Shown here in pieces: positions 5,880 through 58,447 of a DNA stretch of 64,000 nt. The stretch is from Oscillatoriales cyanobacterium (GTDB lineage Bacteria > Cyanobacteriota > Cyanobacteriia > CACIAM-69d). A program made the translations under genes and the position numbers. Position 1 is the stretch's first letter, and every line of letters starts with the position of its first letter. The notes under the pieces were generated by a model, which worked only from the letters and a program-made list of their open reading frames with translations, was not told the origin of the DNA and made no database searches. The DNA lies in NCBI GenBank assembly GCA_004292515.1, contig RDXB01000032.1, forward strand, positions 1-64,000, given 5' to 3'.

Positions 5880-5898
5880 TACGCAAGATTTTCTAAAA

Positions 5899-8562: not shown

Positions 8563-8955
8563 CACGTACCCATCCCTGCCTTGAATTCTGATTAAAGCCT
8601 GCTTGAATCCTGCTACTGGCGGTTGGTTTGCCCAGTCTGACCGATCAGTTCTGTTTCGGTTCTGTTTCGAATGCTGACAGGTTCGATCGCGCTGGCTAGC
8701 CCGTTGTAGCACGTCAAGAGTTCTGTTCTAGCGATTGACTGTAACGGGGATCGATCTCTACCATTGAGTTACATTAATGAACTGTGAAGAACTGTTACGA
8801 TCTTGGGCGAGACATCCTGAACGCTTCCATCGCCGATCTCTTAGCTTTGCTCTCATCCTGCCTCATTTGACGACCGGGGAAACTTGGCGATCGCCACCCC
8901 ACCCTCCCGTTTGAGATTCTCCGTTTCTATCCCTGGCTTTTGGAGCGCGCCCCCT
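8563..8955. other. Divergent intergenic region exbB / TPM gene
   Basis: About 390 bp between divergent genes, with GTTCTGTTTCGGTTCTGTTTCG direct repeats near 8647-8670 and an AT-richer stretch at 8760-8800 (TTACATTAATGAACTG) that may hold promoters. No gene is seen. Confidence 0.5.
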
Positions 8956-17751: not shown

Positions 17752-17925
17752 GGATCGGGAATAGGCGGTCGCCCCCATCAAGCCACAGGCCAGCCACTAA
17801 GTCGATCGCTAAGTCGATCGCCCATTCCCCCTCTGACTGCGCCGCCACCCGTCCGAACCCCTAGCACAACGACCTGAAATCGTTGGCTTAAACGTCAAGA
17901 ATCAAGGGTCAAGAGTCAGACGAAA

Positions 17926-18034
17926 CGTATCCGATTAAACGCATCCGATTAAACGCATCGGAGCAATATGGCGAAACCGCTATGGCGAAATGGCGAAACC
18001 TAGACGAAACCGCTATGGCGAAATGGCGAAACTC
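17926..18034. repeat. Tandem repeats (14 bp and 33 bp periods)
   Basis: CGTATCCGATTAAA and CGCATCCGATTAAA sit in tandem (14 bp). Then two near-identical 28-bp blocks built on CGAAACCGCTATGGCGAAAT start at 17972 and 18005. Confidence 0.75.
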
Positions 18035-20245: not shown

Positions 20246-20290
20246 TATCGTTCCATGCATTATCGTTCCATCCATTGTTGTTCCGTCCAT
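20246..20290. repeat. 15-bp tandem repeat, three units
   Basis: TATCGTTCCATGCAT, TATCGTTCCATCCAT and TGTTGTTCCGTCCAT follow in tandem. Confidence 0.75.
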
Positions 20291-20329
20291 TGCACAACCA
20301 TCCCTGATTGGCGCACTGCGAAGGAATGG

Positions 20330-22627: not shown

Positions 22628-25042
22628 CTATGGGGGTGGGTTGAGGTTAATCGCTGGGGCGATCGGGGAATTGCAGGGGTTGGGGCGATCGGCTGGCCAA
22701 GTCATGATCCGATTGGGGAGGTCTGCGGCGCGCACAAGGAAGGTATCCCCCTTGAGGCCGAGGACGGGACGATTGCTGGTGGGACCCGCCGGACAGATCT
22801 TGATTTGGACCCAATTGATGATCGGCGACTGAGTTGGCTGGTTGGGTGAATTGAGCGAATTGGGTGAATTGGGTGAATTGGGCGAATTGGTCGGGGGCGC
22901 GGCGGTGTCAGTCTCTGAGAAGACGCGCAGGACTTGGATCGGATGGTTGGGGGCCAGCCAGCCAATGTTGGTTTTGGGGCCAACCACCTGGTAAAGACCC
23001 AACGAACTGGCTTCGGGCCGCACCACGAGGGTGGCCCCCGCCTGGATGGTTTTGCTGGGGGCGATCGCAGGGCTGGCCGCGGGACTGACCGTGGGACTGA
23101 CCGTGGGACTGACCGTGGGGCGGGAGCCGGGTGATTCGGGGCTGGACGGGGCCGTAGGGGTGGGACTCGGTGTCGCGGGTGGACTGTTGCCATCCACCAA
23201 CTGCCGAATCAGGGGCCTCGCCACCAAGGTGAACAGGCTACCCACCACAATTAGCCCTGCCAAACCGGCCAGCCAGGGGGCTAAGTTGGGGGGCTGCGAT
23301 CGACGGCGGCGACGTTCGGCCCGGTTGGCGCGATCGACTTCGCTCAGGTCAGCGATCGCCCCAGTCGCAGTTGGGATGACCGTGGCAACAGGGGGCTGAT
23401 CCCTGTCAAGGCGATCGGGGGGCAGCGCCGCATCAACCCGATCCGTGCTGGGCGACGGCATGATCATGCTCAGGGGCTGGCTGGGCAGCACTTGGCTAGC
23501 GGCCCGAATTTGCAGCAGGGCGATCGTGGCGTTGTCATGGCCGTTGTGCTGATTGGCCAGGGCGATCGCCCGTTCCACCGTGGCCACCGCATCGGCATCG
23601 CCCAAACTGGGCAAAAATAGCTCCCGCCACGATCGCTCGATCAAGTCAAAGTCGCTGACTCCATCGGAGCAAAGCACAATTTCGCAGTCTTCATCCAAAA
23701 TCAGATGGCGCACCGTCGGCGACAGGTTTTCCGAGGGGCCCATGCCCAGAGCCTGCACCAGGGCCCCGGCGGAACCAACCTGCAACAGATCGCGATAGAA
23801 CCCCAAGCCCAAGCGACTTTCACGGGTCGCCAAGTCGTCGTCAAGGGTTAAGGGATGGCAGCCAGTGGCGGTGACTTGGTAGGCACGGCTGTCGCCCACA
23901 TGGGCCAGGTAGAGCGATCGCTCGATCATCAAGGCCAACACCACAGTTGTGCCCATCCGCTGGCGTTCGGAGCGGCCTTCATCGTTGTTGCGCTGGGCGA
24001 TCGCGCTATTGGCGGCGGCGATCGCTTCGATCAGGGTTTGGGCCACGGTGGCAGAGTCGGGGGGATGGGTCGCCGCCTGTTCCACAAAAGGAGCTAGCTG
24101 TGTGGTCAGCACCTCGATCGCCAGCCGGGAAGCCACATCCCCCCCCTCATGGCCTCCCAGCCCATCACAGACCATCACCAAGCCGTAGCGATGTCCCGTT
24201 GATGGACTCGGACTGGCTGGGTAACAGGCATCTTCGTTGCGCGATCGACTAGGGCCCGGATCGCTGAGGGTGGCGCTGGCTAAGGCTACGGGCAAGTCCT
24301 GGCACGCCCACTGATTGATCGCCTGCTCTAGGGACTGGGCCAGGGTGGCGGCATCCATTCGGCCCAGGGCAATTTGCTGCATCACCGGCCTAATGATCGG
24401 TTCGATCACTGGATGCGGGATTAATTTTTGAACCAACCAGCGACCCCATTCGGCCAAGCTCTGCGATCGGCCAGCATTGTCTTTTAGGGATAACAGTCGC
24501 ACCCAGCCGCCACCCACCCGCAGTCGATCGGGATCGAACAGCGTCGCCGAGCTATTGACCGCCTGGAGTGGCTCCCACAGGCGGGCCAACTGCCAAAGCC
24601 AATTCAGTTGGCGCAGGGGCGATTGGTGGGGCCATTGCTCCAGCAACCGGGGCAAGAGCGTGCCATCCGGGGCGATCGGCCCGCCTTCGAGCAGGAGGAG
24701 TGGATCGCGCCCCGTGCTGGCATGTTTGGTGATGCCGTAAATTTGCGGAATTTGGGGCCGGTACTCAAACAGGCGTAAATAGTTGAGCGTCGCCCGCGTC
24801 ACCTCATGGGGCACATCCGGCGGTTCAGCCGGTTTGCCATCCATAAAGCAGCGATCGCCCAAGTAGAAATAGCGGTTGCCCACCCAATCCCCCGGCCGCA
24901 ACGCCTTCAGGTTCGAGCCGATCGCATACAAATACACCAGTGCCAAGGGTGCACCGCAGGACGAGCAACTGCGGGCCGTCGCGGGATTGGTGTGGCCGCA
25001 GTGGGGATTGCTGCAAGCAATTGAGCCGATCGGGGTGGTCAT
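22628..25042 (-). CDS. Zinc ribbon / kinase-like / PP2C-type phosphatase, membrane anchored
   Basis: About 804 aa. A zinc ribbon (CSNPHCGHTNPATARSCSSCG, residues 9-29) is followed by a region (about 40-250) that reads like a worn kinase fold (LRPGDWVGNRY, LLLLEGGPIAPDGTLL, LWQLARLWEPLQAV) with no HRD or DFG. The PP2C domain (about 265-515) has DPGPSRSRNEDACY, GLVMVCDGLGGHEGG, LAHVGDSRAY, LCSDGVSDF and GHDNATIALL, so its metal sites look intact. After a linker come a helix (LAPWLAGLAGLIVVGSLF), Pro/Thr/Ser repeats and a C-terminal beta domain (about 700-804) presumably outside the membrane. ATG 25042 is chosen over 25105, which reads into the upstream gene. 11 bp follow the GH116 gene, so an operon is likely. 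Confidence 0.87.
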   Translation of the reverse strand: MTTPIGSIACSNPHCGHTNPATARSCSSCGAPLALVYLYAIGSNLKALRPGDWVGNRYFYLGDRCFMDGKPAEPPDVPHEVTRATLNYLRLFEYRPQIPQIYGITKHASTGRDPLLLLEGGPIAPDGTLLPRLLEQWPHQSPLRQLNWLWQLARLWEPLQAVNSSATLFDPDRLRVGGGWVRLLSLKDNAGRSQSLAEWGRWLVQKLIPHPVIEPIIRPVMQQIALGRMDAATLAQSLEQAINQWACQDLPVALASATLSDPGPSRSRNEDACYPASPSPSTGHRYGLVMVCDGLGGHEGGDVASRLAIEVLTTQLAPFVEQAATHPPDSATVAQTLIEAIAAANSAIAQRNNDEGRSERQRMGTTVVLALMIERSLYLAHVGDSRAYQVTATGCHPLTLDDDLATRESRLGLGFYRDLLQVGSAGALVQALGMGPSENLSPTVRHLILDEDCEIVLCSDGVSDFDLIERSWRELFLPSLGDADAVATVERAIALANQHNGHDNATIALLQIRAASQVLPSQPLSMIMPSPSTDRVDAALPPDRLDRDQPPVATVIPTATGAIADLSEVDRANRAERRRRRSQPPNLAPWLAGLAGLIVVGSLFTLVARPLIRQLVDGNSPPATPSPTPTAPSSPESPGSRPTVSPTVSPTVSPAASPAIAPSKTIQAGATLVVRPEASSLGLYQVVGPKTNIGWLAPNHPIQVLRVFSETDTAAPPTNSPNSPNSPNSLNSPNQPTQSPIINWVQIKICPAGPTSNRPVLGLKGDTFLVRAADLPNRIMTWPADRPNPCNSPIAPAINLNPPP
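22844..22897 (-). repeat. In-frame 9-bp tandem repeat, six units
   Basis: Six units of GGGTGAATT (plus strand, with GAGCGAATT and GGGCGAATT variants) encode the NSP repeats in the PP2C protein's C-terminal part. Period nine keeps the frame. Confidence 0.85.
23081..23116 (-). repeat. In-frame 12-bp tandem repeat, three units
   Basis: GGGACTGACCGT is repeated three times exactly (plus strand) and encodes PTVSPTVSPTVSP in the same protein. Confidence 0.9.
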
Positions 25043-29047: not shown

Positions 29048-29119
29048 GAGTGAGCACTGAGTAAGCACTGAGTAAGCACTGAGTAAGCACTGGGTGAGCA
29101 CTGGGTGAGCACTGAGTGA
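29048..29119. repeat. 11-bp tandem repeat, about six and a half units
   Basis: Units GAGTAAGCACT with GAGTGAGCACT and GGGTGAGCACT variants run between the two PG-binding paralogues, ending just before the second gene's start. Confidence 0.9.
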
Positions 29120-29145
29120 ATGATTTGCAGTTTTGGTTACCCCCC

Positions 29146-29709
29146 ATGGAAAGTTTTGGCTACCCCCACCTGGTCTTGGCTCAGGATTCCGCCAGCGCGA
29201 TCGAAGTTCAACTGGCCGAGGCGATCGCCTGGGAACGGCTCTCAAGCCAAGGCTGGTTGCGGTTTTTGTCCCTGCTGATGGCGGCCACCCTGCTGAGTGC
29301 CGTGGCTGCACCGGCTTTGGCGGGGGGCGCTGGCAGTGATTACCCAGCCTTTGTCACACCCGATCGCCCCGCCGTGAACCGGCCCCTACCCCCGCTCACC
29401 GTGCGCCCCTGCCCCACTTTCAAAACCATCAGCAGCTATGTCTATCAGCCACCCTATCTGCGCAACAGCGGTTCCGGGCGGTTTGGTTGGGGGGCAAACC
29501 CTTGCTATAGCTGTGTGGGGGGCCGCAACATCAACACCAGCCGCCTACAACAACGCCTGAAAGATTTGGGCTATTTCCACTTCCGAGTCACGGGCTACTA
29601 CGGGCCAATCACTGAAAATGCGGTGAAGCGGTTCCAGCGCGATCGCGGCCTGGTTCCCGATGGCGTTGCGGGCCCCCGCACCAAGGCCGCATTGGGTATG
29701 TTTGGCTAG
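29146..29709 (+). CDS. Exported peptidoglycan-binding protein (single repeat)
   Basis: About 187 aa from ATG 29146 (MESFGYPHLVLAQDS). It resembles the preceding gene at the N-terminus (MES..Y.H) and has a signal-like helix WLRFLSLLMAATLLSAVAA ending APALA/GG. One C-terminal PG-binding repeat: NTSRLQQRLKDLGYFHF with YYGPITENAVKRFQRDRGL and PDGVAGPRTKAALG. An upstream GTG at 29116 falls in the repeat array and is unlikely. Cell-wall binding is inferred from the repeat. The two genes look like a diverged tandem duplication. Confidence 0.82.
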   Translation: MESFGYPHLVLAQDSASAIEVQLAEAIAWERLSSQGWLRFLSLLMAATLLSAVAAPALAGGAGSDYPAFVTPDRPAVNRPLPPLTVRPCPTFKTISSYVYQPPYLRNSGSGRFGWGANPCYSCVGGRNINTSRLQQRLKDLGYFHFRVTGYYGPITENAVKRFQRDRGLVPDGVAGPRTKAALGMFG

Positions 29710-29855
29710 GCGATCGCCCGAATCACCCAGCCTCAGCGCGATTCCCCCAACATCCTCACATCATCACATCCTCATACCCCATCAACGCACTGCTCCCCGG
29801 CCCATGACAGGACTCGGGGAGCAAATGACTCGGGTTGAGACCAGATACCGCACTT

Positions 29856-31766
29856 CTAGGGCATCGCATCCATATTGGGTTGCACCTTGACGCGAATCAG
29901 CAGCGCCGTGATGTTGTCATGGCCATTGTGCTGATTGGCCAGCTCAATCAGTTGGATCACCCCCTGATCCAGGTTGGCCCGGGAGCTGATCAGCGGGGCC
30001 AAGTGGGTTTGCCAGTGGGTTTCGATCAGGTCGTTGTCGCTCAGACCATCAGAGCAGAGCAACAACAACGAGTCTTCATCGAGTTCCAAGAACTGCACAT
30101 CGGGATCAACCCCATTGTTGTCGCGTGGGCCCAACGCTTGGGTCAGTTGGTAAGCATCGGGCCGGCTGTAGGCCGCGTCAGGATCGAGACCCCGTTGAAT
30201 TTCCCGTTGTCCCACTTCGTGATCCGTCGTCACTTGCTCTAGGCCGCGCCGCCGGGTCAGTCGATACAACCGACTGTCACCCACGTGGGCCACGGCGGCT
30301 TTGGAATTGTGGACTAACACCAACACCAGGGTAGTGCCCATGCGGCCGCTACCCGATCGCTGCTCGTCCTGGTTGGCTTCGTAAATGGATTGATTGGCCG
30401 CAAGAATGCCCTCGCGAATCGACGCAGCGGAAGGCATTTCGCCGCCCCAATGGGTTTGGGCGTAGGCTTGCAGGGTTTTGACCGCCAGGTGACTGGCCAC
30501 CTCACCGCTGGCATGGCCGCCCATCCCATCACAAAGGATATACAGGTTGTGCGCCTGAAGCGTTTTGCCGGTCGGTGTTTCGCGCTTGGTTAGCTCCGTG
30601 TAAATGCCAAAGCAATCTTCGTTGTGATCGCGTTGGCGGCCAATATCGGTGCAGCCCGCTTCATCCAGCCCCGAGAGTTTCATCGGCAAGACAACGGTGG
30701 GGGTGTCGTCCACATCGTCGTCATCACGCACCACCAACAACGCCAAGTTGGCGGGATCAGCCGCAATGGGCGGGAGCAAATCCGTGGGCAATCTGCGCTC
30801 AAGGTTGTCGGCGATCGAACGCAGGTGCTGCCGAATTGCGTCGGGGCTGGTGAACTGGCCATCTCCAATTGCCTGTGCCAGGTGAATCAACGGAATGGCA
30901 TCCTCGCGATCGACCACTTCCAGCAACTTGACCCACACTTGCCCTAAATGATTTAGGCTGCTGGCCGTGGTGGGTGTTTCGGGCCCCAATCCGGGGCTGT
31001 AGAGCCGCTTGAGACTGAGCACGCTGTCTTCGTCAACGCATAGGTTGTCGATCGCCAGTAAGCTGGCAGTGCATTGCACCGGGATCAGCTCTTCCCACAG
31101 ATCGAGCATTTCGTAGAGATCGTGCAACACCTGTAGGGTCAGCGTTTCCGGGTCACTCCACAGATCGCAGAGGGATTTCCAGTGCGATCGATCTTCAAGG
31201 AGCAACACTTGCCATTGCTGACTTTGCCAGGTGTCATAAACCTGGGGTAGGCGCTGGCCCAGTTGGGAATCTAGCAACAGGTAGGACTGGGCGATCGCGG
31301 GAATTTGCGAAGCCAAGACTGCATCACTAGGAGGGGAACTCTCCATGAAGTCACCCTCAGGCGGGACGGTAGGCTCGTCATCCCCCAGATCAGATTGGTG
31401 TAGCCAGCTTTCAAAGAAGCGAATGCGGTAGGGGTGGCGATCGAACACTTGAGTGTAGAGCTGACCACAGCGATCGATCACCTGGAGTAATCGCAGGGGT
31501 TGGTAGCGCTGAAACGGATCGCTGATTCCGCCAGTTTCAGCGGCGCTGGCTGTGTCCGTTGGCCAATCCGTCTCACCCGCAGGCGGCACAACCAGGGCTT
31601 GGAGCACCGTGCCGATTAATCCCTCACACTGCGTGCAATGCAGTTGCCCCACGCTGTTTTCAGCACCGCAGTGGGGGCAAAGGAGGCGATCGAGGGACGT
31701 GCCGCACTGCTGACAGTATTTGTTGTCGTCAGGGTTTTCGCACTGGCACTGGGGACAAATCTGCAT
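29856..31766 (-). CDS. Double zinc ribbon / kinase-like / PP2C-type phosphatase
   Basis: About 636 aa. Two zinc ribbons (CPQCQCENPDDNKYCQQCG and CPHCGAENSVGQLHCTQC) are followed by a long region (about 85-370; FQRYQPLRLLQVIDRCGQL, VLLLEDRSHWKSLCDLWSD) that again resembles a degenerate kinase without catalytic motifs. The PP2C domain (about 385-630) has DIGRQRDHNEDCFG, YILCDGMGGHASGE, VAHVGDSRLY, LLCSDGLSDND and GHDNITALLIRV, so metal ligands are intact. No membrane segment. ATG 31766 is chosen. It is a paralogue of the 22628-25042 protein with the same order of parts; substrate unknown. Confidence 0.88.
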   Translation of the reverse strand: MQICPQCQCENPDDNKYCQQCGTSLDRLLCPHCGAENSVGQLHCTQCEGLIGTVLQALVVPPAGETDWPTDTASAAETGGISDPFQRYQPLRLLQVIDRCGQLYTQVFDRHPYRIRFFESWLHQSDLGDDEPTVPPEGDFMESSPPSDAVLASQIPAIAQSYLLLDSQLGQRLPQVYDTWQSQQWQVLLLEDRSHWKSLCDLWSDPETLTLQVLHDLYEMLDLWEELIPVQCTASLLAIDNLCVDEDSVLSLKRLYSPGLGPETPTTASSLNHLGQVWVKLLEVVDREDAIPLIHLAQAIGDGQFTSPDAIRQHLRSIADNLERRLPTDLLPPIAADPANLALLVVRDDDDVDDTPTVVLPMKLSGLDEAGCTDIGRQRDHNEDCFGIYTELTKRETPTGKTLQAHNLYILCDGMGGHASGEVASHLAVKTLQAYAQTHWGGEMPSAASIREGILAANQSIYEANQDEQRSGSGRMGTTLVLVLVHNSKAAVAHVGDSRLYRLTRRRGLEQVTTDHEVGQREIQRGLDPDAAYSRPDAYQLTQALGPRDNNGVDPDVQFLELDEDSLLLLCSDGLSDNDLIETHWQTHLAPLISSRANLDQGVIQLIELANQHNGHDNITALLIRVKVQPNMDAMP

Positions 31767-32283
31767 AGCAGCTACCGTCGGATGTCTCAACATGATCGGG
31801 GTATCCGGCGATTAAGCCGTGAGGAGCAAAACATCGGGCGCAGCAAACGCATGGGGATACCCCTATACCCAATCGGGCGACTTGGGGAAGCAGCCGCGTT
31901 GCAGACCATCGGCGATCGCAGCCACGATCGAAACCGGGGTGGGGGTTGTCCCTACGCACCTTTTTGGATTCTAGCCGACGAGTTTCGAGTCTAGGGGCAA
32001 TCTCGGGGCGTAGATGACTGATCCAGCATCCTAAGTCGAGATCTACCATGCCTTGCGCTGGCGATCATTAAAGTGCCTGCATTTAGATTGCCTAAAATTT
32101 AAATTGCCTAGAATTGCCTAGCGTCATGCCAGGATCGGGGCAGAGTCGGGCGATCGCACCCTGATTGGGCTGGGGCTTGCCGGGTCGTATCTAGGTTTTA
32201 GCTAGGTTTTAGCTAGGTTGTACTGTTCCATCCTTCAGCCATCCAATCCGGGCAATCCCCCTCGGCCGTTATTCCTAGAGATC
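31767..32283. other. Spacer upstream of the PP2C gene with short repeats
   Basis: About 520 bp without a gene. ATTGCCTA-type repeats lie at about 32083-32121 and an 11-bp array at 32191-32220. Confidence 0.6.
32191..32220. repeat. 11-bp tandem repeat
   Basis: CTAGGTTTTAG occurs twice exactly and a third time partly (CTAGGTTG). Confidence 0.8.
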
Positions 32284-33237
32284 CTAGGGAGTCGCAGGAC
32301 TGAGGGGCGTAGGCAACGGCCGGGTGGGCAAATTCCGAAACGTGCGATCGCCGCTATAGCCCGACAAATCAGCAAGGCGATCGAGTGGCATCACACCCTG
32401 ATAAAGCTTTCCACCCACTTGCCAGGAGGGGAAACTGCGCACCCCCGCCTTTTGGCAAACCTCTGGCTTGGCGCGACGACCGTTGGGATCACACTCCACG
32501 TAGGGCAACTCCTTCGCGGCTTCCTTGCCAAAAAGCTCTTTTTGCTCGTGGCAGTGGGGACACCAGTAGGCCCCAAACTCTTGAGCACCCGATTCGCGCA
32601 GGTGTTTGGCGAGGGCAATTTCCGAGGGGCCAGACGTGGTGGTCATCGGAAATAGGGAATCAGTTCCCTGATCGGCCGGTGTCGCATACAGGGCCAGCGT
32701 GCCGATCAGGGTAACGATCGCAACGACCAGGGTGGCAAAGAAGGGTTTACCCCAATCGTCCCAGCGCCGACCGGCCAAAGCCAGACCCAGCAAGCTAAAG
32801 GAAAAAACCGCCGACACAACGCAGTAAACGCAGGCGGCCTTGATTTCGGAGGTGAGCAGGTACATCAAATAGCTGCTAAACACCGCCATGGACGCGCCAC
32901 CGACCACTAGCAGCAGTCCTGTCCATTCTTCCACTTGGGCTTGGCGGGCCTTTTGGGCTTCCCCGATCGCGATCGGGGCGAGGGCCAGCAGCATCATCAC
33001 CAAGTAGGCCGCCATCCCAAACAGGGACAGGGGCAACCCAAACACTTCCGCGTAGGGACTGTTTAAGACACGATCGCACCCTTCGATCGGACAAGACACC
33101 TCATTGCCAGTCAATTTAATGACCGTGAGATAACCCGTAAGCAACAGACCCACACCAGCCACACTGGCCAAGAGTGTGCGCGCGTGGCGATGAATCCAAG
33201 GAATTTGGCGGCGGCGTTTGGTGCTAGAAGCAGTCAT
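32284..33237 (-). CDS. VKOR-thioredoxin fusion (disulfide-forming protein)
   Basis: About 317 aa from ATG 33237 (MTASSTKRRRQIPW). The VKOR domain (about 25-160) has four to five helices with the loop pair CPIEGC, the motif SPYAEVFGLPLSLFG, and the active-site CVYC. The C-terminal thioredoxin-like domain has CPHC in FGAYWCPHCHEQKELFG. This is the cyanobacterial/plastid (LTO1) type that forms disulfides in lumen or periplasmic proteins and is needed for PSII assembly in plants and cyanobacteria. The frame is open upstream to 33393 without a good start. Alone on the strand. Confidence 0.92.
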   Translation of the reverse strand: MTASSTKRRRQIPWIHRHARTLLASVAGVGLLLTGYLTVIKLTGNEVSCPIEGCDRVLNSPYAEVFGLPLSLFGMAAYLVMMLLALAPIAIGEAQKARQAQVEEWTGLLLVVGGASMAVFSSYLMYLLTSEIKAACVYCVVSAVFSFSLLGLALAGRRWDDWGKPFFATLVVAIVTLIGTLALYATPADQGTDSLFPMTTTSGPSEIALAKHLRESGAQEFGAYWCPHCHEQKELFGKEAAKELPYVECDPNGRRAKPEVCQKAGVRSFPSWQVGGKLYQGVMPLDRLADLSGYSGDRTFRNLPTRPLPTPLSPATP

Positions 33238-33607
33238 GGCAAAGCACAGAGAACGATCATCAAATGATCTGAAAATAATCCACAACCGGGGCGACCGAAT
33301 CACGGCCCAACTACAGCCTTCAGGGTAGCGAACGCCCTTGAGCCTGTCTAGGCGTTGCTGTGCCAGCCCAGGATGAACGATCGCATCATCCAATCACTCA
33401 GGCGCATCATGCACTCCCGTGACGAGATTCACCCCCATGATTGGCCCAGTTTCCGGGGGCATTGTCACCCAGCGGCTGGCGATCGGTCAGGGTCACTGGG
33501 TCAGGATCGCTGAGTCAGGGTCACTAGGTCAGGGTCACTCAGTCAGAACCACCGAGCAAGGGCTACTCAGTCCAGGCTACGCAGCAATGTCGAGCTGGCT
33601 TGATCTC
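33238..33607. other. Spacer with 14-bp tandem array
   Basis: About 370 bp; contains the array at 33484-33580 and no gene. Confidence 0.6.
33484..33580. repeat. 14-bp tandem repeat, about seven units
   Basis: Units such as CGGTCAGGGTCACT, GGGTCAGGATCGCT, GAGTCAGGGTCACT and AGGTCAGGGTCACT are consecutive; the last units drift (CAGTCAGAACCACC). Confidence 0.85.
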
Positions 33608-34450
33608 CTAAGCCAAGGAGGGGGCTTCGGTGGCAGCAGGGCTGAGGGGCGATCGCGGCCGACGGGCCACCTCCACCAACTGGCTAACCCGGTTGGGATC
33701 GATCGGCAAATCGCGTCGGCCACGCCGCTTGAGGGAACTGGCCACAATAACCCCATCGGCCACATCCAGTAGTTGGGAGACGTTATCGTAGTTGGCTCCA
33801 CTACCCACAAAAATTGGCGTGTCGCCCGCCGCTGCCTTGGCTAGTTCCAGATCTTCTACGTTTGGCGGGCTGCCGGTGGCCCAACCAGACAAAATTGCCC
33901 CATCAGCGAGGCCGCGTTCGATTGTGTCCTGCACCGCCACGGTCAAATTGGGCGTGCCGATCGGTCGGGCATGTTTTACCAGTACGTCGGCCAAGATTTT
34001 GACATCGCTGCCCAACTCTCGCCGATAGCGCAGCAGCTCGTGGGCGCGACCTTCGATCAACCCCTGATCGGTGGCCATCACCCCTGACAAAACATTGACC
34101 CGAATGAAATGGGCCCCGGTGCAACTGGCGATCGCCACGGCTGATCGCGCGTCATTGCGCAGAACATTGACCCCGACCGGTAATGTCACCAGATTTTGCA
34201 AATGGTGAACCACCAAGGTCATGGCACTCACCACCGCCGGATCGACTTCATCCTTGGGAAACGGAGCGTCAAAGAAATTTTCGACCAAGATCGCATTTAC
34301 GCCACCCGCAGCGAGGGCAACGGCCTCTTGTTCTGCCCGCTCTACCACGGCTTTGAGGTTTGCTCCCCACCGAGGCGAACTCGGCAGCGGCAGTAAATGA
34401 ACGACTCCGATGATCGGCTTAGGATGTTTAAAAACTTGATCGAGATCCAC
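33608..34450 (-). CDS. btpA: Photosystem I biogenesis protein BtpA
   Basis: About 280 aa. A TIM-barrel of the BtpA/SgcQ family: KPIIGVVHLLPLPSSPRW, NAILVENFFDAPF, GVNVLRNDARSAVAIA, FIRVNVLSGVM and PIFVGSGANYDNVSQLL. BtpA is an extrinsic thylakoid protein needed for stable PSI reaction centres in Synechocystis. GTG 34450 (VDLDQVFKHP) is preferred, with CAGGT about seven bases upstream; an in-frame ATG is at 34501. No operon partner. Confidence 0.93.
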   Translation of the reverse strand: MDLDQVFKHPKPIIGVVHLLPLPSSPRWGANLKAVVERAEQEAVALAAGGVNAILVENFFDAPFPKDEVDPAVVSAMTLVVHHLQNLVTLPVGVNVLRNDARSAVAIASCTGAHFIRVNVLSGVMATDQGLIEGRAHELLRYRRELGSDVKILADVLVKHARPIGTPNLTVAVQDTIERGLADGAILSGWATGSPPNVEDLELAKAAAGDTPIFVGSGANYDNVSQLLDVADGVIVASSLKRRGRRDLPIDPNRVSQLVEVARRPRSPLSPAATEAPSLA

Positions 34451-34591
34451 GCAAAGACCTGAAAACTCAGCGAAACACAGCGGCGTTAGTATCCCACCCA
34501 TTCTATCGAGCTTAGGGATCGCAGACGGTTGAAATTTTGACGCGCCCGTTGCGATCGCTGGTGATGTTGCTAGGTCTGGACTGGGAGCGAT

Positions 34592-34657
34592 CAGACCAGA
34601 AGCAGACCAGGGGCAGACCAGGGGCAGACCGGGGGCAGACCGGGGGCAGACCGGGGT
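34592..34657. repeat. 11-bp tandem repeat, six units
   Basis: CAGACCAGAAG, CAGACCAGGGG (twice), CAGACCGGGGG (twice) and CAGACCGGGGT are consecutive. Confidence 0.9.
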
Positions 34658-34991
34658 TGGGCCAGGGCTGGGCGATCGCTTCCCATCGTCTCAGAGGATG
34701 TCGTCACCTGCTGGGACAAGCTGAAACAGTTGATTTTCCATCCCCCCATCATCGCAACAAGGGGCTACAACCGCTGATTACTCCACGATCTCGTTACTCC
34801 CTCGTTACTCCAACATCTCGTAGCTGTGCAATCAGGGTTGCAGGCGAAACAACAACACGTCCTAAGCCCCTTGCCTAAGTCGATCGCTGGAGCCTATGGA
34901 GGATCAATTCTGGCTGCTCAGACCGCCTCTTCGCCCTGTTGAGTTGTGCCCCTCCCTCCATGGAAGGATCGATTGGCTACTCCAGGGATTA

Positions 34992-35070
34992 GTTGATCTA
35001 GGGATGGGGTGATCTAGGCGTTGGGTGATCTAGGTATTGAGTAATTTGGGTATTGGTTAGTCTGGAGGTC
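34992..35070. repeat. 15-16-bp tandem repeat, five units
   Basis: GTTGATCTAGGGATG, GGGTGATCTAGGCGTT, GGGTGATCTAGGTATT, GAGTAATTTGGGTATT and GGTTAGTCTGGAGGTC. Confidence 0.8.
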
Positions 35071-35564
35071 GATCGAGCAACCAGGCTCGCGAGAACACCG
35101 TGGTCAAAACCAGTCCGCACCCATCTGCATCCGCGTCTATCTACATCCGCTGTCAATCAATCCCATAGCAGCGCCAATCAACAAAAAAATTTGATATAGA
35201 AAGTGGATTTTGCTACAGGAAGTTGATACAGGACAGTTTGCGGGATTCCTAATTTGCTCGCCAGCCCCTAGCCCACGCGCGGGGCAGTTTACCCCATCGT
35301 CTCTATTGCCTTTATCAAGAAACGAGCCATCGCTTTGAAAATCACTGAAAAATGACTAGAATCCCTGGGCGGGGAAGTGGGTGATTTACTTGATCAAAAG
35401 ACGGTGATCAAAAGACAGTGACCTCAAGGTAATAATCGGATTGTTGATTAGAGCGATAAAGCACAAATGCTAAGAAAATATCGTATTAAAAGTTGCAACG
35501 GCATCCAGGTCTTATAAAGTTTTCCAAAAAATTGTGATTTAAGCTGCTATTTTTTCTAACAATA

Positions 35565-35570
35565 TATACT
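35565..35570 (+). promoter_or_regulatory. Possible -10 box of the STAND NTPase gene
   Basis: TATACT about 57 bp before the TTG start, in AT-rich DNA. No clear -35 at 16-18 bp upstream. Confidence 0.25.
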
Positions 35571-35626
35571 GTTCGGGGCGCTACCATGTAGGGCCGTAGG
35601 ATGTTTCGCACAGAGAGATTGGTGAA

Positions 35627-37234
35627 TTGATTCCTCAAGACTTTTTGAGACAAATTGCAAGGGAGCATAGCGTCTCCAATACAGAACTCGACGTTTTGGC
35701 AGCCGCCATCAATGGTGAGCCGATGAACGCGATCGCCCAGCGATTGGGCATCCGCCCCGAAGCCGCCCGTAAGCGGTTGGGTGAGGTGTATAAGAAATTT
35801 CACATCGCTGGGGCTGGGCCGGGCAAGTTAGCGAAACTGCAACAGATCCTGGTGACCCAGTACCAAACACGCCAAGCCCAAGGGCCGATCGTGGCCATGC
35901 CGGTGGTGCAAGAGGTGGAAACCGGTGAGTTGCCTCCGCAGTATGACTGGGGTGACGCGCCCGATGTTTCGGCGTTCTATGGTCGATCGACGGAGCTAGA
36001 ATCCCTTAAAAGCTGGGTCACGGGCGATCACTGCCGGGCCGTGGCCTTGTTGGGGATCGCTGGCAGCGGCAAAACGGCCCTGGCGGTGCGCTTGGCCAAA
36101 GCCCTGGAAGCCGAGGAAGAGTTTGAGTTTATTATTTGGCGATCGCTGCGGCATGGGGTTTCACCGCGTGATGCGATCGGGCGGATGGTGCAAACCCTCT
36201 CGCGCAAGCGCCAAACCTACCTGCCGGAAAGCACCCACAACCGGATCACACTGCTGATCGACTATCTCCGCCAGCATTGCTGCTTGATCGTGCTTGATGG
36301 CGTGGAATCGGTGTTGCGCCAAGGCGACATTTCCGGTCAATATCGCGATGGTTTTGAGGATTACGGCGATTTGTTGCGCCGAATCGGGGAAGAATCACAC
36401 CAAAGCTGCTTGTTGCTAACTAGCGCTGAAAAACCACGTGAGATCGCTCGCCTTGAGGGCAATACATTGCCGGTGCGGGTCTTGCAACTCAGCGGCATGG
36501 GGCCAGAGGAAGCGGGTGAAATTTTCCGCGACAAGGGACTACAAGAGGAGAAGCTTTGGGGGGAATTGGCAGAACTTTATCGCGGCAATCCGCTGACGCT
36601 AAAGATTGCTTCGACGACTATTCAAGAGCTGTTTGGTGGCCGAGTTTCGGAGTTTCTGAAGCAATCAACGTTGGTCTTTGGTGATATCCGCGATTTGTTG
36701 CAGCGCCAGTTCGATCGCCTCTCGGAAATTGAGCGGGCGATTGTTTATTGGTTGGCGATCGAGCAACAAACGATGGCGTTGACCCAACTGCGCGACAAGA
36801 TCTCGATTCCGTTTTCCCAGCCGGAGCTGATCGAAGCTCTGGAGTCCTTGGGACGGCGATCGCTGATTGAGCGTGGTTCCTCGGGTGGAGCTTCCTTTGG
36901 GCTGCAGCCGGTGGTTTTGGAATACATCACCCAAGAGTTTGCCGACTCGGCCTGTGCAGAACTCCAAGACCTGCTGCGAACGCAAAAGATCGATCGCCTC
37001 GACCTGTTCCGGTCCCATGCCCTCACGGCCGAATCGAGTCCTGCGAGCGGCCCCATCTTGAACGATGTCAAAAACCGACTGCGCAAGATGATTCGCAACG
37101 ATCGGCAACTGGAAAGCCAACTGGAAAAAGTTTTGGCGATCCTCGAAGCCAAGTTCCCCTTAGAAGTGGGCTATGCCACCAACAATGTCCAGCAGCTCTT
37201 GGATGCGGTGCGCGTGGATTTGCAAACCGCCTAA
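35627..37234 (+). CDS. STAND-type NTPase with N-terminal HTH, no C-terminal repeats
   Basis: 535 aa from TTG 35627. An N-terminal LuxR/GerE-like HTH (NTELDVLAAAINGEPMNAIA to FHIAGAGPGKLAKLQQ, residues 18-78) leads to an NB-ARC-type NTPase with Walker A GIAGSGKTAL (Lys149), Walker B-like CCLIVLDGVES, LLLTSAEKPREI and the GNPLTLKI helical block, then winged-helix-like SLGRRSLIERG. Closest relatives I know end in WD40 repeats; here the protein stops at QQLLDAVRVDLQTA, where those repeats would begin, and a terminator follows about 340 bp later. A nine-codon upstream frame (35601-35630) overlaps the start. The sensing surface is therefore missing or supplied by another protein. Function not known; defence or regulation are possible. 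Confidence 0.85.
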   Translation: MIPQDFLRQIAREHSVSNTELDVLAAAINGEPMNAIAQRLGIRPEAARKRLGEVYKKFHIAGAGPGKLAKLQQILVTQYQTRQAQGPIVAMPVVQEVETGELPPQYDWGDAPDVSAFYGRSTELESLKSWVTGDHCRAVALLGIAGSGKTALAVRLAKALEAEEEFEFIIWRSLRHGVSPRDAIGRMVQTLSRKRQTYLPESTHNRITLLIDYLRQHCCLIVLDGVESVLRQGDISGQYRDGFEDYGDLLRRIGEESHQSCLLLTSAEKPREIARLEGNTLPVRVLQLSGMGPEEAGEIFRDKGLQEEKLWGELAELYRGNPLTLKIASTTIQELFGGRVSEFLKQSTLVFGDIRDLLQRQFDRLSEIERAIVYWLAIEQQTMALTQLRDKISIPFSQPELIEALESLGRRSLIERGSSGGASFGLQPVVLEYITQEFADSACAELQDLLRTQKIDRLDLFRSHALTAESSPASGPILNDVKNRLRKMIRNDRQLESQLEKVLAILEAKFPLEVGYATNNVQQLLDAVRVDLQTA

Positions 37235-37870
37235 GGAGGTTGGTCGCTGTCAGTTTGTCATGACAGCAATGATCGTAGGGACGACCGGATGATGACCGGA
37301 TGATGACTGCAACACGCTGGGTCATGCCGGTGGCAATTCGCTGGGGCGATCGCCCGGTGAGCACTCTGCCCACCAAGTGGGGCAGGGCACACAACTAACC
37401 AGTCCAACTGATGCCAATGGATGGTGTGATCAACAGCTCCGTGCCCGATCAAATTCCGATCGCGGCGGCTGCGTTGGGCCGGTCGCTTGGTGTGCCCCGA
37501 CGGAGATGCCAAATCGCGCCGGTTCTGCGGGGCTGATGTCCACCGCATTGCACAAGCAGCAGTCATTCAAAGCCAACAGCCCGATCAACGCAACTCGATC
37601 GGGCTGTTTTTTCCGTTTTTTTGAGTCTGGCGGGGCAACTGTTGACGGTCAATTGCCGGTTTTGAACCGAAACCCAACAGCGGGTGACGCGATCGCCCTT
37701 GAGTTGGGGTTCAGCAACCGCTTCTGCGGCTGGGATGCTTGGCCAGTGGCGGGAATTGCTTTGGCTGGAAATTGCTTTAGCTGGAAATTGCTTTAGCTGG
37801 GAATTTCTCCAGCTGGGATTGTTGTAGCCGGAATTGCTTTAGCTGGAAATTGCTTTAGCTGGAAATTGCT
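37235..37870. other. Spacer with terminator and a 16-bp tandem array
   Basis: About 640 bp. A strong plus-strand terminator lies at 37575-37612 and the array at 37751-37891. A 41-codon frame at 37411-37536 has no support. Confidence 0.65.
37575..37612 (+). terminator. Strong intrinsic terminator
   Basis: AACAGCCCGATC and GATCGGGCTGTT form a perfect 12-bp stem with a 10-nt loop, followed by six T. It would end transcription from the STAND gene. Confidence 0.85.
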
Positions 37871-37891
37871 TTAGCCGGGATTGTTGTAGCT
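37751..37891. repeat. 15-16-bp tandem repeat, nine units
   Basis: Units GGAAATTGCTTTAGCT with variants GGGAATTGCTTTGGCT, GGGAATTTCTCCAGCT and GGGATTGTTGTAGCC. The last units overlap the 3' end and stop of the adjacent ferredoxin gene. Confidence 0.92.
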
Positions 37892-38218
37892 ACGGTAGGC
37901 CAAGTGAATACGAGGATTTAACAATTCCGTCACCGGGCGATCGTGCCGTAAGTGCTCCTCCACAATTTGCGGCACATCCGACGGCTGCACGCGGGCATAC
38001 CAGGTTTCATCGGGCTGAATTCGCACGCTCGGCCCCAAGTGACACTGACTTTGACAGTCACTCACTGCCACGGTCACCCCTTCCGGCAAGTCGGCCGCTG
38101 CCAAAGCAGCCAGCACAGCCCTTGCGCCATTGCGGTAGCAGTGCACATTTTGACAAACCAAAATGCGGCGATCGGAGCAGGGGTCAGAGCGGCGATCGGA
38201 ACTGGAGGAGTCAAACAC
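37871..38218 (-). CDS. Thioredoxin-like [2Fe-2S] ferredoxin
   Basis: 115 aa. The four cluster Cys lie in two pairs: CQNVHCYRNG (about 23-28) and SDCQSQCHLGPSVRI (about 55-59), the C-x4/5-C...C-x3-C layout of thioredoxin-like ferredoxins. The usual electron-transfer role is in the cytosol; redox partner unknown. The C-terminus SYNNPG and stop are encoded inside the tandem array 37751-37891, so the end of this protein has been shaped by the repeats. No neighbouring oxidoreductase. Confidence 0.85.
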   Translation of the reverse strand: MFDSSSSDRRSDPCSDRRILVCQNVHCYRNGARAVLAALAAADLPEGVTVAVSDCQSQCHLGPSVRIQPDETWYARVQPSDVPQIVEEHLRHDRPVTELLNPRIHLAYRSYNNPG

Positions 38219-38458
38219 AGGGCTGGCCAGGTGAATGAAGAGAGTAGCGAGAGGCGTGCTGTGGAGCGATCGAGCCGCAACAGCTCGTGAGGAGTGGGGA
38301 TCGCTTCACTCCATTATGAGAGCGATTCGCAGGTTCGCGGCGGCTAGTGGCCAGAATTTTGAACCGGACTGCCCTCGTCTAGTGATCGCATGGCGATCGC
38401 CCTTGAGCCGTGGCCCCTTGGGTTCGGAAAGTTTTCGGAAAGTTTGACGATAGGGGCT

Positions 38459-38488
38459 GGGAGCTTTTAAATTGGGAGCTTTTAAATC
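38459..38488. repeat. 15-bp tandem duplication
   Basis: GGGAGCTTTTAAATT followed by GGGAGCTTTTAAATC. Confidence 0.85.
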
Positions 38489-38545
38489 GGGAATGGTGTT
38501 GATGTGCAGTTGAGCCAGTGGGAGCTTCATCGACCACTCACACCG

Positions 38546-38615
38546 GATCAATTACACCGAAGCAATTACACCGAATCGCTGACATCAGCTAATTACATCA
38601 ATCAATTACATCGAT
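38546..38615. repeat. Degenerate 14-15-bp repeats
   Basis: ATCAATTACACCGAAG, CAATTACACCGAATC, CTAATTACATCAATC and CAATTACATCGATC occur within 70 bp. Confidence 0.65.
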
Positions 38616-38711
38616 CAATCGACAATAGAAGCAGCTATCTACCAGTGGCGACCGCCCACGCGATCGCCTGCCACTCACCATCTTCGGCTTACAAAACCCA
38701 CCACCCTCGTT

Positions 38712-44663: not shown

Positions 44664-44702
44664 CGATTGCAACGCCCGATTGCAACGACCAATTGCAACG
44701 AT
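44664..44702. repeat. 13-bp tandem repeat, three units
   Basis: CGATTGCAACGCC, CGATTGCAACGAC and CAATTGCAACGAT are consecutive. Confidence 0.8.
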
Positions 44703-45485: not shown

Positions 45486-45632
45486 AGAACGGGTTATCCC
45501 CCTGACGGGTTATTCAAGTACCAATCATCCGGATTATGGGCTGATGTCTGGCCAAAGCTCGGGCGCGTGATGGTTAAGACCTGTCATCAATTAGCCTGAA
45601 ACCCTGATTCCACCGTGACGAGATCGTGGGGG

Positions 45633-45654
45633 GCAAGGAGCTTAAGCCCCTTGT
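45633..45654. repeat. Copy of the ACAAGGGGCT palindromic repeat
   Basis: GCAAGGAGCTTAAGCCCCTTGT is an inverted repeat with one mismatch, followed by TACGACGA; same family as 18046-18067. Lies between the cupin and J-protein genes. Confidence 0.6.
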
Positions 45655-45717
45655 TACGACGATTGAGGCTTAGAAAATCGGCAATTTCAGACTCGTGTCG
45701 GGAAATGATGACACTCC

Positions 45718-46176
45718 CTACAAGCCGGCGATTTGGGTGAGGGAAATTTCGCCGCGCAACACACCCACCAGCAACACCAGCGCAATGCCACCAATAAAAG
45801 TTAGCCCCAGGGTAAACAGGGCGAACAACTCTCCACCAGAGAGGGGGCGATCGGTCGGATCGAGATAGAGATTTGAGGATTCGTATTCGGGCGGGGGCTG
45901 CAAATTTTGCCAGGGGCGCACCACCGTCCAGCGCGAGTAGCCGATCGCCAGGTCGTATTGTTCACGGCGATCGGGACTGCTGAGGACGGCGTAGGCCTGG
46001 TTTAGTTCTTGGAATTTGACCGTGGCGATCGCAACAGGCAGGGTCGTCGTGTCCGGGTGGTAGGCCTTGCTCAATTCGCGGTACTGCCGCCGAATGTCAA
46101 TCACATCGGCGGAGGGATGCAGACCCAGCAAATCGTAGTAGGTGGGGCTAGGGAGTTCAGCGCGATCGCCCGGCAT
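45718..46176 (-). CDS. Membrane-anchored J-domain protein
   Basis: 152 aa. An N-terminal J-domain (about 10-75): TYYDLLGLHPSADVIDIRRQYRELSK, the HPD motif in KAYHPDTT, and FQELNQAYAVLSSPDRREQYD. The C-terminal 40 residues hold one or two membrane helices (LFALFTLGLTFIGGIALVLLVGVL). It would recruit Hsp70 (DnaK) to the membrane. The usual DnaJ zinc-finger and substrate domains are absent (a class III J-protein). It follows the O-antigen ligase-like gene by about 25 bp on the same strand, so co-transcription is likely. Confidence 0.9.
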   Translation of the reverse strand: MPGDRAELPSPTYYDLLGLHPSADVIDIRRQYRELSKAYHPDTTTLPVAIATVKFQELNQAYAVLSSPDRREQYDLAIGYSRWTVVRPWQNLQPPPEYESSNLYLDPTDRPLSGGELFALFTLGLTFIGGIALVLLVGVLRGEISLTQIAGL

Positions 46177-48522: not shown

Positions 48523-49008
48523 TCCACACTGGTTTCAGCGTCTAAACTATTGAGATTAATGGGCTGCTCGTCCGTTTGAATAGCCGTTGAGATTGTGCTT
48601 GATCGAGCGTTATTGATTCAGCCCCATTGTACAAAGGGATGCGAAAGGCTCCGCGATCGGGTCATGGGTCGGCTTCCAAATCTTTAGATTTGCCTTGGCG
48701 TTGGGGCCAGTCGTCATTGGCTCCGATGAGGTTGAAATGGTTGATCTTCCTTGCCCCAACCGTTGTAACAAGAGTCTGCAGCCCCTCGCTGCCCAACGAT
48801 CTGTGGACGGACTGTGGACGGCAAGCTCAGGGTTTCAGGCCCAATGACGACAGGCCCTAGCAGGGGGCGCAGGTTCCTCACCCAATAGCCTTGCGATCGC
48901 GGCTGTTGTTGAGCAGCATCGCGCGATCGGTGACGGCAAACCACACCGGGGAACTGCCCCAAAAATATCCCAAACTCCCCGCCGCGATCGGCAAAATGTG
49001 ATGCATTC
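48523..49008. other. Spacer with a degenerate palindromic repeat
   Basis: About 490 bp between divergent genes, including a worn copy of the ACAAGGGGCT element at about 48764-48795. No gene or terminator is seen. Confidence 0.5.
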
Positions 49009-50076
49009 ATGACAAATTCTTCAACAGACTCGGTTTTCACGATCGTCATCGGCGCAGGCTTGGCCGGGCTGGCCGCCGCTCGCGAGTTGCAGGCCGCTGG
49101 GCGATCGGTCGTGGTGCTCGAAAAATCTCGGGGGCCGGGCGGCCGACTCAACACCCGCCGCCATCTAGAGACCCGTGCCGATCGCGGCGTGCCCTACTGG
49201 CAAAACCAGGGGCCGTTGACCCAGGCTTGGCGGGCGGAGTTGTCTGGTCATTGCGACCTGCGGCCCTGGCCGAACAAGCTCCATCACCTAACCGCACAGG
49301 GAATCACCCCAGAATCGATCGCCGATCGCTGGACGATCCCCACCGGCCTCAGCAGTGCCGCCAAGGTTTGGGCGGCGGGGTTGAGCATTGCCCGCAACCA
49401 CCGGGCGATCGCCCTGACGGCTCCCCAGTCCCCCGGCGATCCCTGGCAAATTCGCTGTGACTGTCCCCAAGCCAATCGCCCGGCCGACTTTCAAGAAGAC
49501 TGGTTAGCCGCTGCGATCGTTTTGGCGATCCCCGCCGCTCAGGCGGCCGATTTGCTGGAGCCGATCGCCCCCGACTGGGCCGGTTTGGCGCGCGGGGTAG
49601 CTTACGATCCCTGCTTCACGATCACGGCGGCCTATGCCAAAAAATTGGTGTGGCCCACCCTCGGATCGGCAGACTGGCAAGCGATCGCCCCCGAACTCTC
49701 CACCGACTGGCGCTGGCTGGCCCGCGAGGACAGCAAAACCGACGGAGCATCGCAGCCGGTGATTGTGCTGCACAGTCAGCCCGCCTTTGCGGATCATTGG
49801 TGGAACCATCCAGACCTCGAGGCGGCCGGGCGATCGCTGCTGGCTCGGGCTGCTGCCGACACGGGGATCGCGCTGACTGAGCCGGATTGGCTGCAAGTTC
49901 ACCGCTGGCGTTATGCGATCGTCTGGCAGGGGGTTGAGGCCACCTGCTGGGTCGATCAAACCCAGGCGATCGCCGTGGCGGGTGACTGGTTCAACAATGC
50001 CGATCCCCGCCAGTCCCTAGAAGCGGCCCTGCGATCGGGGCAAGCTGCCGCCCAGTCCCTCTTAGGATCGCGCTAG
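49009..50076 (+). CDS. FAD-dependent oxidoreductase, renalase-like
   Basis: 355 aa. An N-terminal Rossmann fold binds FAD: FTIVIGAGLAGLAAARELQAAG, then VVVLEKSRGPGGRLNTRR and the second dinucleotide motif region; a late C-terminal GDWFNNADPRQSLEAALRSGQAAA is the typical FAD-binding end (GD...). This is the renalase/NAD(P)-binding flavoprotein group, widespread in cyanobacteria as carotenoid- or quinone-acting-like proteins, substrate unknown. No signal peptide. Alone; the toxin-antitoxin pair follows. Confidence 0.8.
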   Translation: MTNSSTDSVFTIVIGAGLAGLAAARELQAAGRSVVVLEKSRGPGGRLNTRRHLETRADRGVPYWQNQGPLTQAWRAELSGHCDLRPWPNKLHHLTAQGITPESIADRWTIPTGLSSAAKVWAAGLSIARNHRAIALTAPQSPGDPWQIRCDCPQANRPADFQEDWLAAAIVLAIPAAQAADLLEPIAPDWAGLARGVAYDPCFTITAAYAKKLVWPTLGSADWQAIAPELSTDWRWLAREDSKTDGASQPVIVLHSQPAFADHWWNHPDLEAAGRSLLARAAADTGIALTEPDWLQVHRWRYAIVWQGVEATCWVDQTQAIAVAGDWFNNADPRQSLEAALRSGQAAAQSLLGSR

Positions 50077-50121
50077 CCTGAGATCAACAGTCTGAGATCG
50101 ATAGCCTGAGATCGACAACTG
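50077..50121. repeat. Tandem repeat, three units (15-16 bp)
   Basis: CCTGAGATCAACAGT, CTGAGATCGATAG and CCTGAGATCGACAACT. Confidence 0.7.
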
Positions 50122-51940: not shown

Positions 51941-52278
51941 ACCCAGCGGTAACTAGCAGCAGTAGGGTGGGCAATGCCCACCGCCCCAAGGCAGCATCCA
52001 TCCTCAAAGTCATGATTACCCTCTCCCAAAGTGGTGCAGATCCATTGAGTGATGGATGATTACGTGATCAATGATTGAGTGATGGATGATTGAGTGATGG
52101 ATGACAGGTAGGCAATGCCCGCCCTACAAGCTGACTGGCTCAACCCAAAAGTGCTGCAAGTGGAAGGGCGCACAGCGGTTGATCCCTACCGGTGCTGGGC
52201 TGATCCCAGGTGAAGTAGGGACATACCGCGTACGCCCTTTAACGATCCATGATCCTATGATCCTAACCAGGCGATCGC
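51941..52278. other. Spacer with a 15-bp tandem array
   Basis: About 340 bp between convergent genes; the array is at 52044-52104. No gene is seen. Confidence 0.6.
52044..52104. repeat. 15-bp tandem repeat
   Basis: ATTGAGTGATGGATG occurs three times, twice in direct tandem after a diverged middle unit. Confidence 0.8.
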
Positions 52279-58008: not shown

Positions 58009-58447
58009 TTTCAAAGACAATACGTTAAAACCTTGCTCCCTGCATCGTTTCCCCGGCAATTCACCGAGACGCGATCGCCGCAAGTTTCAACAGTCCCAAA
58101 GCCCAGCCAAACGCACCATCGGCGATCGCCCCTCACCAGGGAATCGATCATAGATGGTGCGCTTTGCGTTAGTTAGTTGATGGGTTGATTGGTTAATTGG
58201 CTAATTAATTGATTGGTTAACTGATTGACTAGATCTCTCGCTCGCGTCGGCTAGCAGCCCTCATTCCCCGACCCCTTCTCCCAAGTTGAGCGCAGGGCAG
58301 CCGGAAATCAAAGTTTTCAGCGATTGTGTTGCCGGCTTGCAAGTCTCTCTGCCGACTTGGGAGCGGGATTTAGGGTGAGGGTCGAGATTAGTGAGAGTCG
58401 AGATTAGTGTCAGAGGTCTACTGTTGATTGACTGGCGACTGAGGCGG
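58009..58447. other. Spacer with AT repeats and an inverted-repeat element
   Basis: About 440 bp downstream of tRNA-Arg. Degenerate TTGATTGGTTAA-type repeats lie at about 58163-58232 and the CCCTCA element at 58258-58381. No gene. Confidence 0.65.
58258..58381. repeat. 124-bp inverted-repeat element (CCCTCA family)
   Basis: Left end CCCTCATTCCCC, right end TTTAGGGTGAGGG; the interior has inverse TTCTCCCAAGTTG/CGACTTGGGAG arms. Second, longer copy of the element at 5899-5982. Confidence 0.65.

Follow-up and report, generated by a model that had tools for sequence, protein, structure and literature searches.

Many intergenic spacers in a 64,000-bp window of a Limnothrix genome (bases 1-64000 of contig 39 of the source genome G000, a draft of 3.98 Mb in 111 contigs) carry short tandem arrays. 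Rather than being functional elements, these record a mutational process of limited step size that is still at work: non-repetitive DNA acquires head-to-tail duplications of 9-16 bp, and the resulting arrays then gain and lose copies and decay. The ends of the duplications bear C at position -4 with T at -5, more often than expected on one and the same strand at the two ends, and the enzyme leaving this signature is probably topoisomerase I (TopA). Comparisons were made with two Limnothrix congeners (G001 and G002, whose shared DNA is 93.9% identical) and two genomes of the same family as G000 (G003 and G004); the samples drawn from G000, G001 and G002 came to 0.84, 0.66 and 0.70 Mb. The assignment to Limnothrix comes from a search with the BtpA neighbour, for which Limnothrix sp. 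CACIAM 69d gave the best named match (93% protein identity). Conserved gene order between the window and the two congeners is broken into short blocks, from a few to ~12 kb long, and nucleotide identity in shared DNA averages 77%.

Arrays were counted for density with Tandem Repeats Finder (TRF; period 9-40, score at least 50). The 168 kb of spacer in the G000 sample hold 217 of them, whereas ten dinucleotide shuffles average 0.6; this excludes chance, by the kind of shuffled-control comparison that the original prediction had proposed. Density is 1.288/kb in spacers vs 0.136/kb in coding sequence, where the periods are nearly all multiples of three. An array is borne by 143 of the 377 spacers of at least 150 bp (38%), and both congeners were in a similar state in smaller, initial samples. 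Per kb of spacer the window has 1.71 arrays against 1.28 in the rest of the sample, and its 29.0-38.7 kb stretch, picked because it looked rich, has 3.36 (Poisson p = 0.004); this cluster is the dense end of a genome-wide state.

A threshold-free count of distances between repeated 7-mers and 10-mers gives a band at 9-16 bp that drops steeply at 17, while periods 1-6 are not in excess. Likewise, G000 spacers contain 170 exact duplications with units of 9-16 bp and about 10 (9-10) with units of 17-45 bp. With rotation and strand allowed for, the 353 exact duplications of 9-16 bp from the three Limnothrix genomes include 338 whose units are distinct, so that the units are unrelated, as had been claimed, and a transposed or dispersed family or mobile element is ruled out; the long array at 37752-37891 is itself unique in G000.

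That the process is still running can be seen between the two congeners. In 169 kb of aligned G001 and G002 spacers plus flanks, clean-flanked indels of 1 bp occur 103 times, those of 5-8 bp 42 times, of 9-16 bp 145 times and of 17-24 bp 35 times. Of the 145, 45 are tandem at 85% identity or more (0.3% at random sites); the shorter allele is single-copy in 21 of these and already repeated in 17. The 21 one-to-two-copy events duplicated non-repetitive DNA with no prior repeat needed, and the 12 exact ones among them have microhomology of 0-3 bp (mean 1.2, vs ~0.7 by chance as calculated from base composition). Two identical copies imply origin by duplication, whichever way the difference between the genomes is read. 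The 17 events are copy-number differences between the congeners in existing arrays, a kind of change that the original prediction had proposed to look for between strains. Between G000 and its congeners, orthologous spacers carry unrelated units of the same period class. Given these fresh duplications and unrelated units, each species has its own arrays, which arise locally and turn over, in agreement with the earlier idea of one common, locally acting mechanism. The companion idea that this mechanism makes spacers grow was not supported as a net effect: array-bearing spacers exceed their orthologs by a mean of 84 bp and a median of 8 bp (Wilcoxon p = 0.26, n = 17). Three window spacers (34451-35626, 37235-37870 and 38219-38711) are 1.7-2.9 times longer than in both congeners, and net spacer expansion of the genome was rejected, coding fraction and median spacer length being alike in the three Limnothrix genomes.

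The edges were examined in Limnothrix spacers, by reading the bases around both ends of 149 unique two-copy duplications that are exact and have at most 1 bp of microhomology. C at -4 (G at +3 for the other strand) occurs 217 times vs 90 for the reverse (p = 2.9e-13), and the other seven of the offsets 1-8 lack a comparable asymmetry. The outer base beside this C is preferentially T, at -5 (114 vs 75). The C bias recurs separately in G000 (105 vs 42, p = 2e-7) and in G001 plus G002 (113 vs 50, p = 9e-7), in each unit class (9-10, 11-13 and 14-16 bp), and is strongest at zero microhomology (163 vs 56). Duplications with 2-4 bp of microhomology, placed leftmost, give no signal (77 vs 78), as expected if the join is ambiguous; units of 5 bp (87 vs 49) were kept out of the analysis since their two edges overlap. 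HIP1 context was ruled out as the source of the motif, since the signal persists where no HIP1 lies nearby (194 vs 76). In a set independent of the discovery set, the outer flanks of 298 diverged duplications, the bias is 194 vs 125 with none at other offsets, and outer flanks in other cyanobacteria give 64 vs 36. When strand is set by the C alone, the frequency of T at -5 at the two edges is 0.47 and 0.40 in Limnothrix, and 0.41 and 0.45 in the other cyanobacteria.

In the exact spacer set the two edges of one duplication tend to be coupled. Of the 149 duplications, 59 have C at -4 of both edges on one strand, where random sites predict 19 and the column counts 39.5, and the opposite-strand combination is seen 28 times vs 39.5 expected; the full TC at -5/-4 is found at both edges in 17 vs 1.4 expected. 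None of 5000 permutations reached the observed same-strand coupling, either for Limnothrix spacers or for other cyanobacteria, with p = 0.011 in the clean-flank subset of the latter. Polymorphic one-to-two-copy events between G001 and G002, which partly overlap the exact set, show it in 11 of 16 (3.7 expected). Deletions, viewed as the mirror reaction, offer few clean cases: 6 same-strand and 2 cross in 18, or 4 of 15 by another counting.

TRF detects an array at every coordinate named in the original prediction, with some corrections to the stated periods. Of those given as 15-16 bp, the arrays at 34984-35039 and 37752-37891 both have period 16 and the one at 50075-50117 has period 14; of the "14 and 33" bp near 17926, the former is a true array and the latter the spacing of a 28-bp pair. 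By our gene calls all these arrays lie in spacers, three of them (29048, 37752 and 50075) touching a predicted gene end by 2-21 bp. The arrays and duplications in the window are as follows, with strand unassigned unless given.

8648..8669, exact two-copy 11-bp duplication GTTCTGTTTCG; no microhomology and no same-strand C at -4.
17797..17821, exact 12-bp duplication CTAAGTCGATCG; no same-strand C at -4.
17923..17959, 14-bp array, 2.6 copies, AAACGCATCCGATT.
17972..18032, two 28-bp copies spaced 33 bp apart (17972 and 18005).
20246..20291, 15-bp array, 3.1 copies, TATCGTTCCATCCAT; the orthologous spacer has a different 14-bp array.
29048..29119, 11-bp array, ~6.5 copies, GAGTGAGCACT; occupies nearly the whole of a 94-bp spacer and is not in the orthologous G001 and G002 spacers.
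32081..32121, 16-bp array, 2.2 copies; overlaps an exact two-copy 10-bp duplication, AATTGCCTAG, at 32102-32121.
32191..32219, 11-bp array, 2.6 perfect copies, CTAGGTTTTAG.
33484..33546, 14-bp array, ~4 diverged copies, GGTCAGGGTCACTG; higher-order period of 28 bp.
34592..34656, 11-bp array, 5.9 copies, CAGACCAGGGG; orthologous spacers lack it.
34790..34811, + strand, exact two-copy 11-bp duplication CTCGTTACTCC; no microhomology, both edges with C at -4 on the + strand (cacgat/.../CTCC/).
34984..35039, 16-bp array, 3.5 copies, AGGGATTGGGTGATCT.
37283..37307, exact 11-bp duplication GACCGGATGAT, 2.3 copies.
37752..37891, 16-bp array, 7-9 copies, AATTGCTTTAGCTGGA; lies within a two-copy higher-order repeat of 62 bp.
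38423..38445, - strand, exact 11-bp duplication TTCGGAAAGTT; 1 bp of microhomology, one of the two placements giving C at -4 at both edges on the - strand.
38458..38492, - strand, exact 15-bp duplication TGGGAGCTTTTAAAT; no microhomology, both edges with C at -4 on the - strand, so that on the + strand G is the fourth base after each edge.
38540..38619, array of 13-14 bp, diverged copies, ACACCGAATCAATT.
44664..44701, 13-bp array, 2.9 copies, CGATTGCAACGAC.
50075..50117, 14-bp array, 3.1 copies, 82% match, AGCCTGAGATCGAC; begins at the stop of the upstream gene.
52044..52104, 15-bp array, 4.1 copies, ATTGAGTGATGGATG.

Within the array at 37752-37891, some four 16-bp units make up the 62-bp block, whose two copies are 91% identical. 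Predicted genes of the window also contain in-frame tandem repeats of 9 and 12/24 bp (22842-22890, 23073-23119, 61044-61077 and 5098-5187), likely the same process under reading-frame selection.

Some dispersed repeats were seen as well: (i) A MITE-like repeat of ~150 bp lies at 45574-45720 (+) and 48698-48860 (reverse complement), with dozens of copies in both orientations in G001 and G002. (ii) A second family, at 58222-58390, has dozens of copies in the congeners and overlaps a segment with an inverted partner, ACCCTCACCCCTAGCCTCTCTCCCAAGTCGG, at 5898-5933. (iii) G000 spacers contain the 10-mer GTTAATCAAC/GTTGATTAAC 19 times (0.3 expected); it lies in or across several 11-bp insertions found in one congener only (examples among the G002 vs G001 indels are C53:8886:9065 and C53:17934:18431), much as a tiny mobile repeat would. 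The last was dismissed as a source of the edge signature, 0 of the 149 events being near GTTAATCAAC.

The signature resembles the cleavage preference of a known enzyme class. Type IA topoisomerases I and reverse gyrases prefer C at -4 of the cleaved bond, where it fits a pocket formed in Escherichia coli by Arg169, Arg173 and Tyr177 (PMC7587558), and the E. coli motif in vivo is TCNTTA/T, with cleavage 4 nt after the C (PMC9352719). The T at -5 and C at -4 of the duplication edges match this motif, which makes topoisomerase I the leading candidate. A type IA topoisomerase is present in all 30 genomes searched, and G000 has exactly one, with the -4 pocket (R169, R173, Y177) and Tyr319 intact. 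Residues R168 and R35 are conserved in G000-G003, and a change like R168C or R35P in the Limnothrix enzyme was thereby ruled out.

Judging from edge sequence and enzyme sequence, we think it probable that TopA, as the sole type IA topoisomerase, makes the duplications by cleaving, extending and resealing; the enzyme, the extension and the sealing are what we infer from the observed edges. On cutting one strand after TCNNN, TopA would keep the 5' end bound to its tyrosine while the 3'-OH is free. This 3' end would be lengthened by 9-16 nt before resealing, until another CNNN occupies the -4 cytosine pocket; alternatively, a second cleaved 3' end could be supplied by the sister strand. TopA would then reseal, and the next replication would fix the 9-16 extra nt as a tandem duplication. 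If sealing needs a cytosine in the pocket, C at -4 is expected at both edges on the same strand. Slippage or unequal exchange inside an array may drive its later growth to many copies, and weak selection would let arrays persist in spacers while in genes chiefly multiples of 3 survive.

Several observations weigh against this proposal. Same-strand coupling is absent from the diverged set (52 vs 47.7 expected, n = 298), which we ascribe to less exact edges, and from coding duplications (12 same vs 18 cross), which we ascribe to codon constraint. About 60% of the duplications lack a same-strand C at -4 at both edges, and part of the coupling could stem from imperfect homology between flanks and unit ends, which is slightly raised at offsets 2-6. 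The signature was found by looking, so that its first p value does not come from a test stated beforehand, as those of the separate sets do. At the duplication hotspots of E. coli no topoisomerase motif was found (PMC6954433). The Limnothrix enzyme is the same as that of array-poor cyanobacteria at every catalytic and pocket residue, and its sequence does not account for array-rich Limnothrix vs array-poor G004; topoisomerase copy number also fails to separate array-rich from array-poor genomes. Finally, the proposal leaves the lower limit of 9 bp and the upper limit of 16 bp unexplained.

Replication slippage, in which the nascent strand moves back 9-16 bp and recopies through short or imperfect repeats, with unit size set by polymerase or primer geometry, would account for the 17 copy-number differences in existing arrays, and its imperfect homology agrees with bases 2-6 outside an edge matching the other edge at ~0.3 vs 0.25 by chance. 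The founding events, however, have only the slight microhomology given above and no prior repeats, periods 1-6 show no excess, and slippage does not predict C at -4 with T at -5 at C:G ratios of 2-3 to 1. Polymerase-slippage microsatellites were rejected on the first two counts, the original prediction's suggestion of local slippage is not supported in the usual sense, and slippage as the origin of the duplications seems unlikely. Two opposite-strand nicks 9-16 bp apart, followed by fill-in and rejoining, have been proposed for plant tandem duplications, and Bachar et al. (PMC6954433) mention them as a model that could apply to topA mutants; they would yield blunt duplications of limited size, but require an opposite-strand signature, which is the combination found in deficit here while the same-strand one is in excess, and Ku, relevant to end joining, is absent from G000, G001 and G002. 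We consider paired nicks highly improbable.

Another DNA-cleaving enzyme with a similar preference (a prokaryotic Argonaute, or some transposase or relaxase not yet known) is quite unlikely. A Piwi-domain (prokaryotic Argonaute) gene does parallel array density, being found in the three Limnothrix genomes at the positions below and not in G004, G016 or G018.

G000:C70:97207-98022, Piwi-domain gene.
G001:C25:47949-48470, Piwi-domain gene.
G002:C8:113504-114043, Piwi-domain gene.

It is, however, also absent from G003, which has 10 non-triplet arrays per 100 kb, and the C signature extends across other cyanobacteria; nor do we know of any C-4 rule for Argonautes, which counts against them. That the arrays are functional, as regulatory binding sites or RNAs under selection, might be suggested by their location mostly in spacers and by the length and good internal conservation of some. 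Their units, however, are private to each spacer and not common to orthologous spacers, and arrays also occur in coding sequence, where their periods are multiples of 3. Divergent (promoter) spacers are not enriched: exact duplications per kb number 0.81 in divergent, 0.74 in tandem and 1.03 in convergent spacers, and within tandem spacers the counts by fifths (48, 40, 36, 31, 29) lean toward the 3' end of the upstream gene. Such a distribution points to tolerated mutation rather than regulation; with this and the missing conservation, regulatory arrays were ruled out and a functional role is scarcely credible.

The closest known system is the E. coli topA R168C mutator of Bachar et al. (2020; PMC6954433), in which head-to-tail duplications of 2-19 bp, a range that includes the 9-16 bp units of Limnothrix, make up half of sequenced galK mutations and, as in Limnothrix, are independent of existing repeats. 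Its authors left direct action of the enzyme open and called the first origin of tandem repeats from non-repetitive DNA unknown. The mutator is a catalytic mutant in which no cleavage motif was found, whereas Limnothrix is a natural lineage with R168 intact, a 9-16 bp band and the C and T preferences; the topA-mutator duplication was known, and the natural lineage, intact enzyme and readable signature are new. Type IA topoisomerase I sites (PMC9352719, PMC7587558) share with the Limnothrix edges a C exactly four bases before the join, a T before it and, as a tendency in Limnothrix, placement on one strand, but are sites of reversible cleavage, whereas here the preference stands at both edges of fixed duplications.

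The repeats of Borg elements (PMC9879509) are similar in their private units, independent origin at each locus, fast evolution and in-gene multiples of three; they differ in being A-enriched, nearly perfect and carried on archaeal extrachromosomal elements, their mechanism being unknown there. De novo tandem repeats of 9-60 bp in bacterial beta-lactamase genes (PMC4169377) were attributed to flanking direct repeats or same-strand complementary sequences (SCS); unlike in those cases, direct repeats longer than 3 bp were not seen at the fresh exact Limnothrix events. Nostoc-type heptamers (STRR) are likewise short tandem repeats in cyanobacterial spacers, but period 7 is commonest there, with 110 arrays in 1.27 Mb (79 loci of other cyanobacteria) vs one in 0.84 Mb of G000. 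Arrays of heptamer type, with period 7 and a shared unit, were accordingly ruled out, and the claimed unlikeness to Nostoc-type genomes is confirmed.

We used arrays with periods of 10, 11, 13, 14, 16 or 17 as a non-triplet measure. Per 100 kb these number 16.7 in G000, 10.4 in G001, 16.2 in G002, 10.0 in G003 and 3.3 in G004, 5.2 in the 79 loci of other cyanobacteria (partly heptamer multiples) and 0 in G016, G018 and E. coli. For exact duplications of 9-16 bp the densities per Mb are 324, 194, 242, 140 and 108 in G000 to G004, in that order, and 114 in the 79 loci; 254 kb of E. coli K-12 has three, each of 9 bp. From these densities, the duplication process is strongest in Limnothrix, yet extends beyond that genus.

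A C-4 signature at both edges of natural duplications, mostly on one strand, points to direct action of the enzyme and suggests the form of the reaction, to cleave, extend and reseal. The edge test is simple and applicable to any bacterial genome, and topoisomerase I action would account for many minisatellites private to each spacer without a transposed family. It is an evenly balanced proposition that new tandem repeats are naturally generated by wild-type bacterial topoisomerase I, which would seed minisatellites from unique DNA, with Limnothrix and several other cyanobacteria as genome-scale records of its activity.

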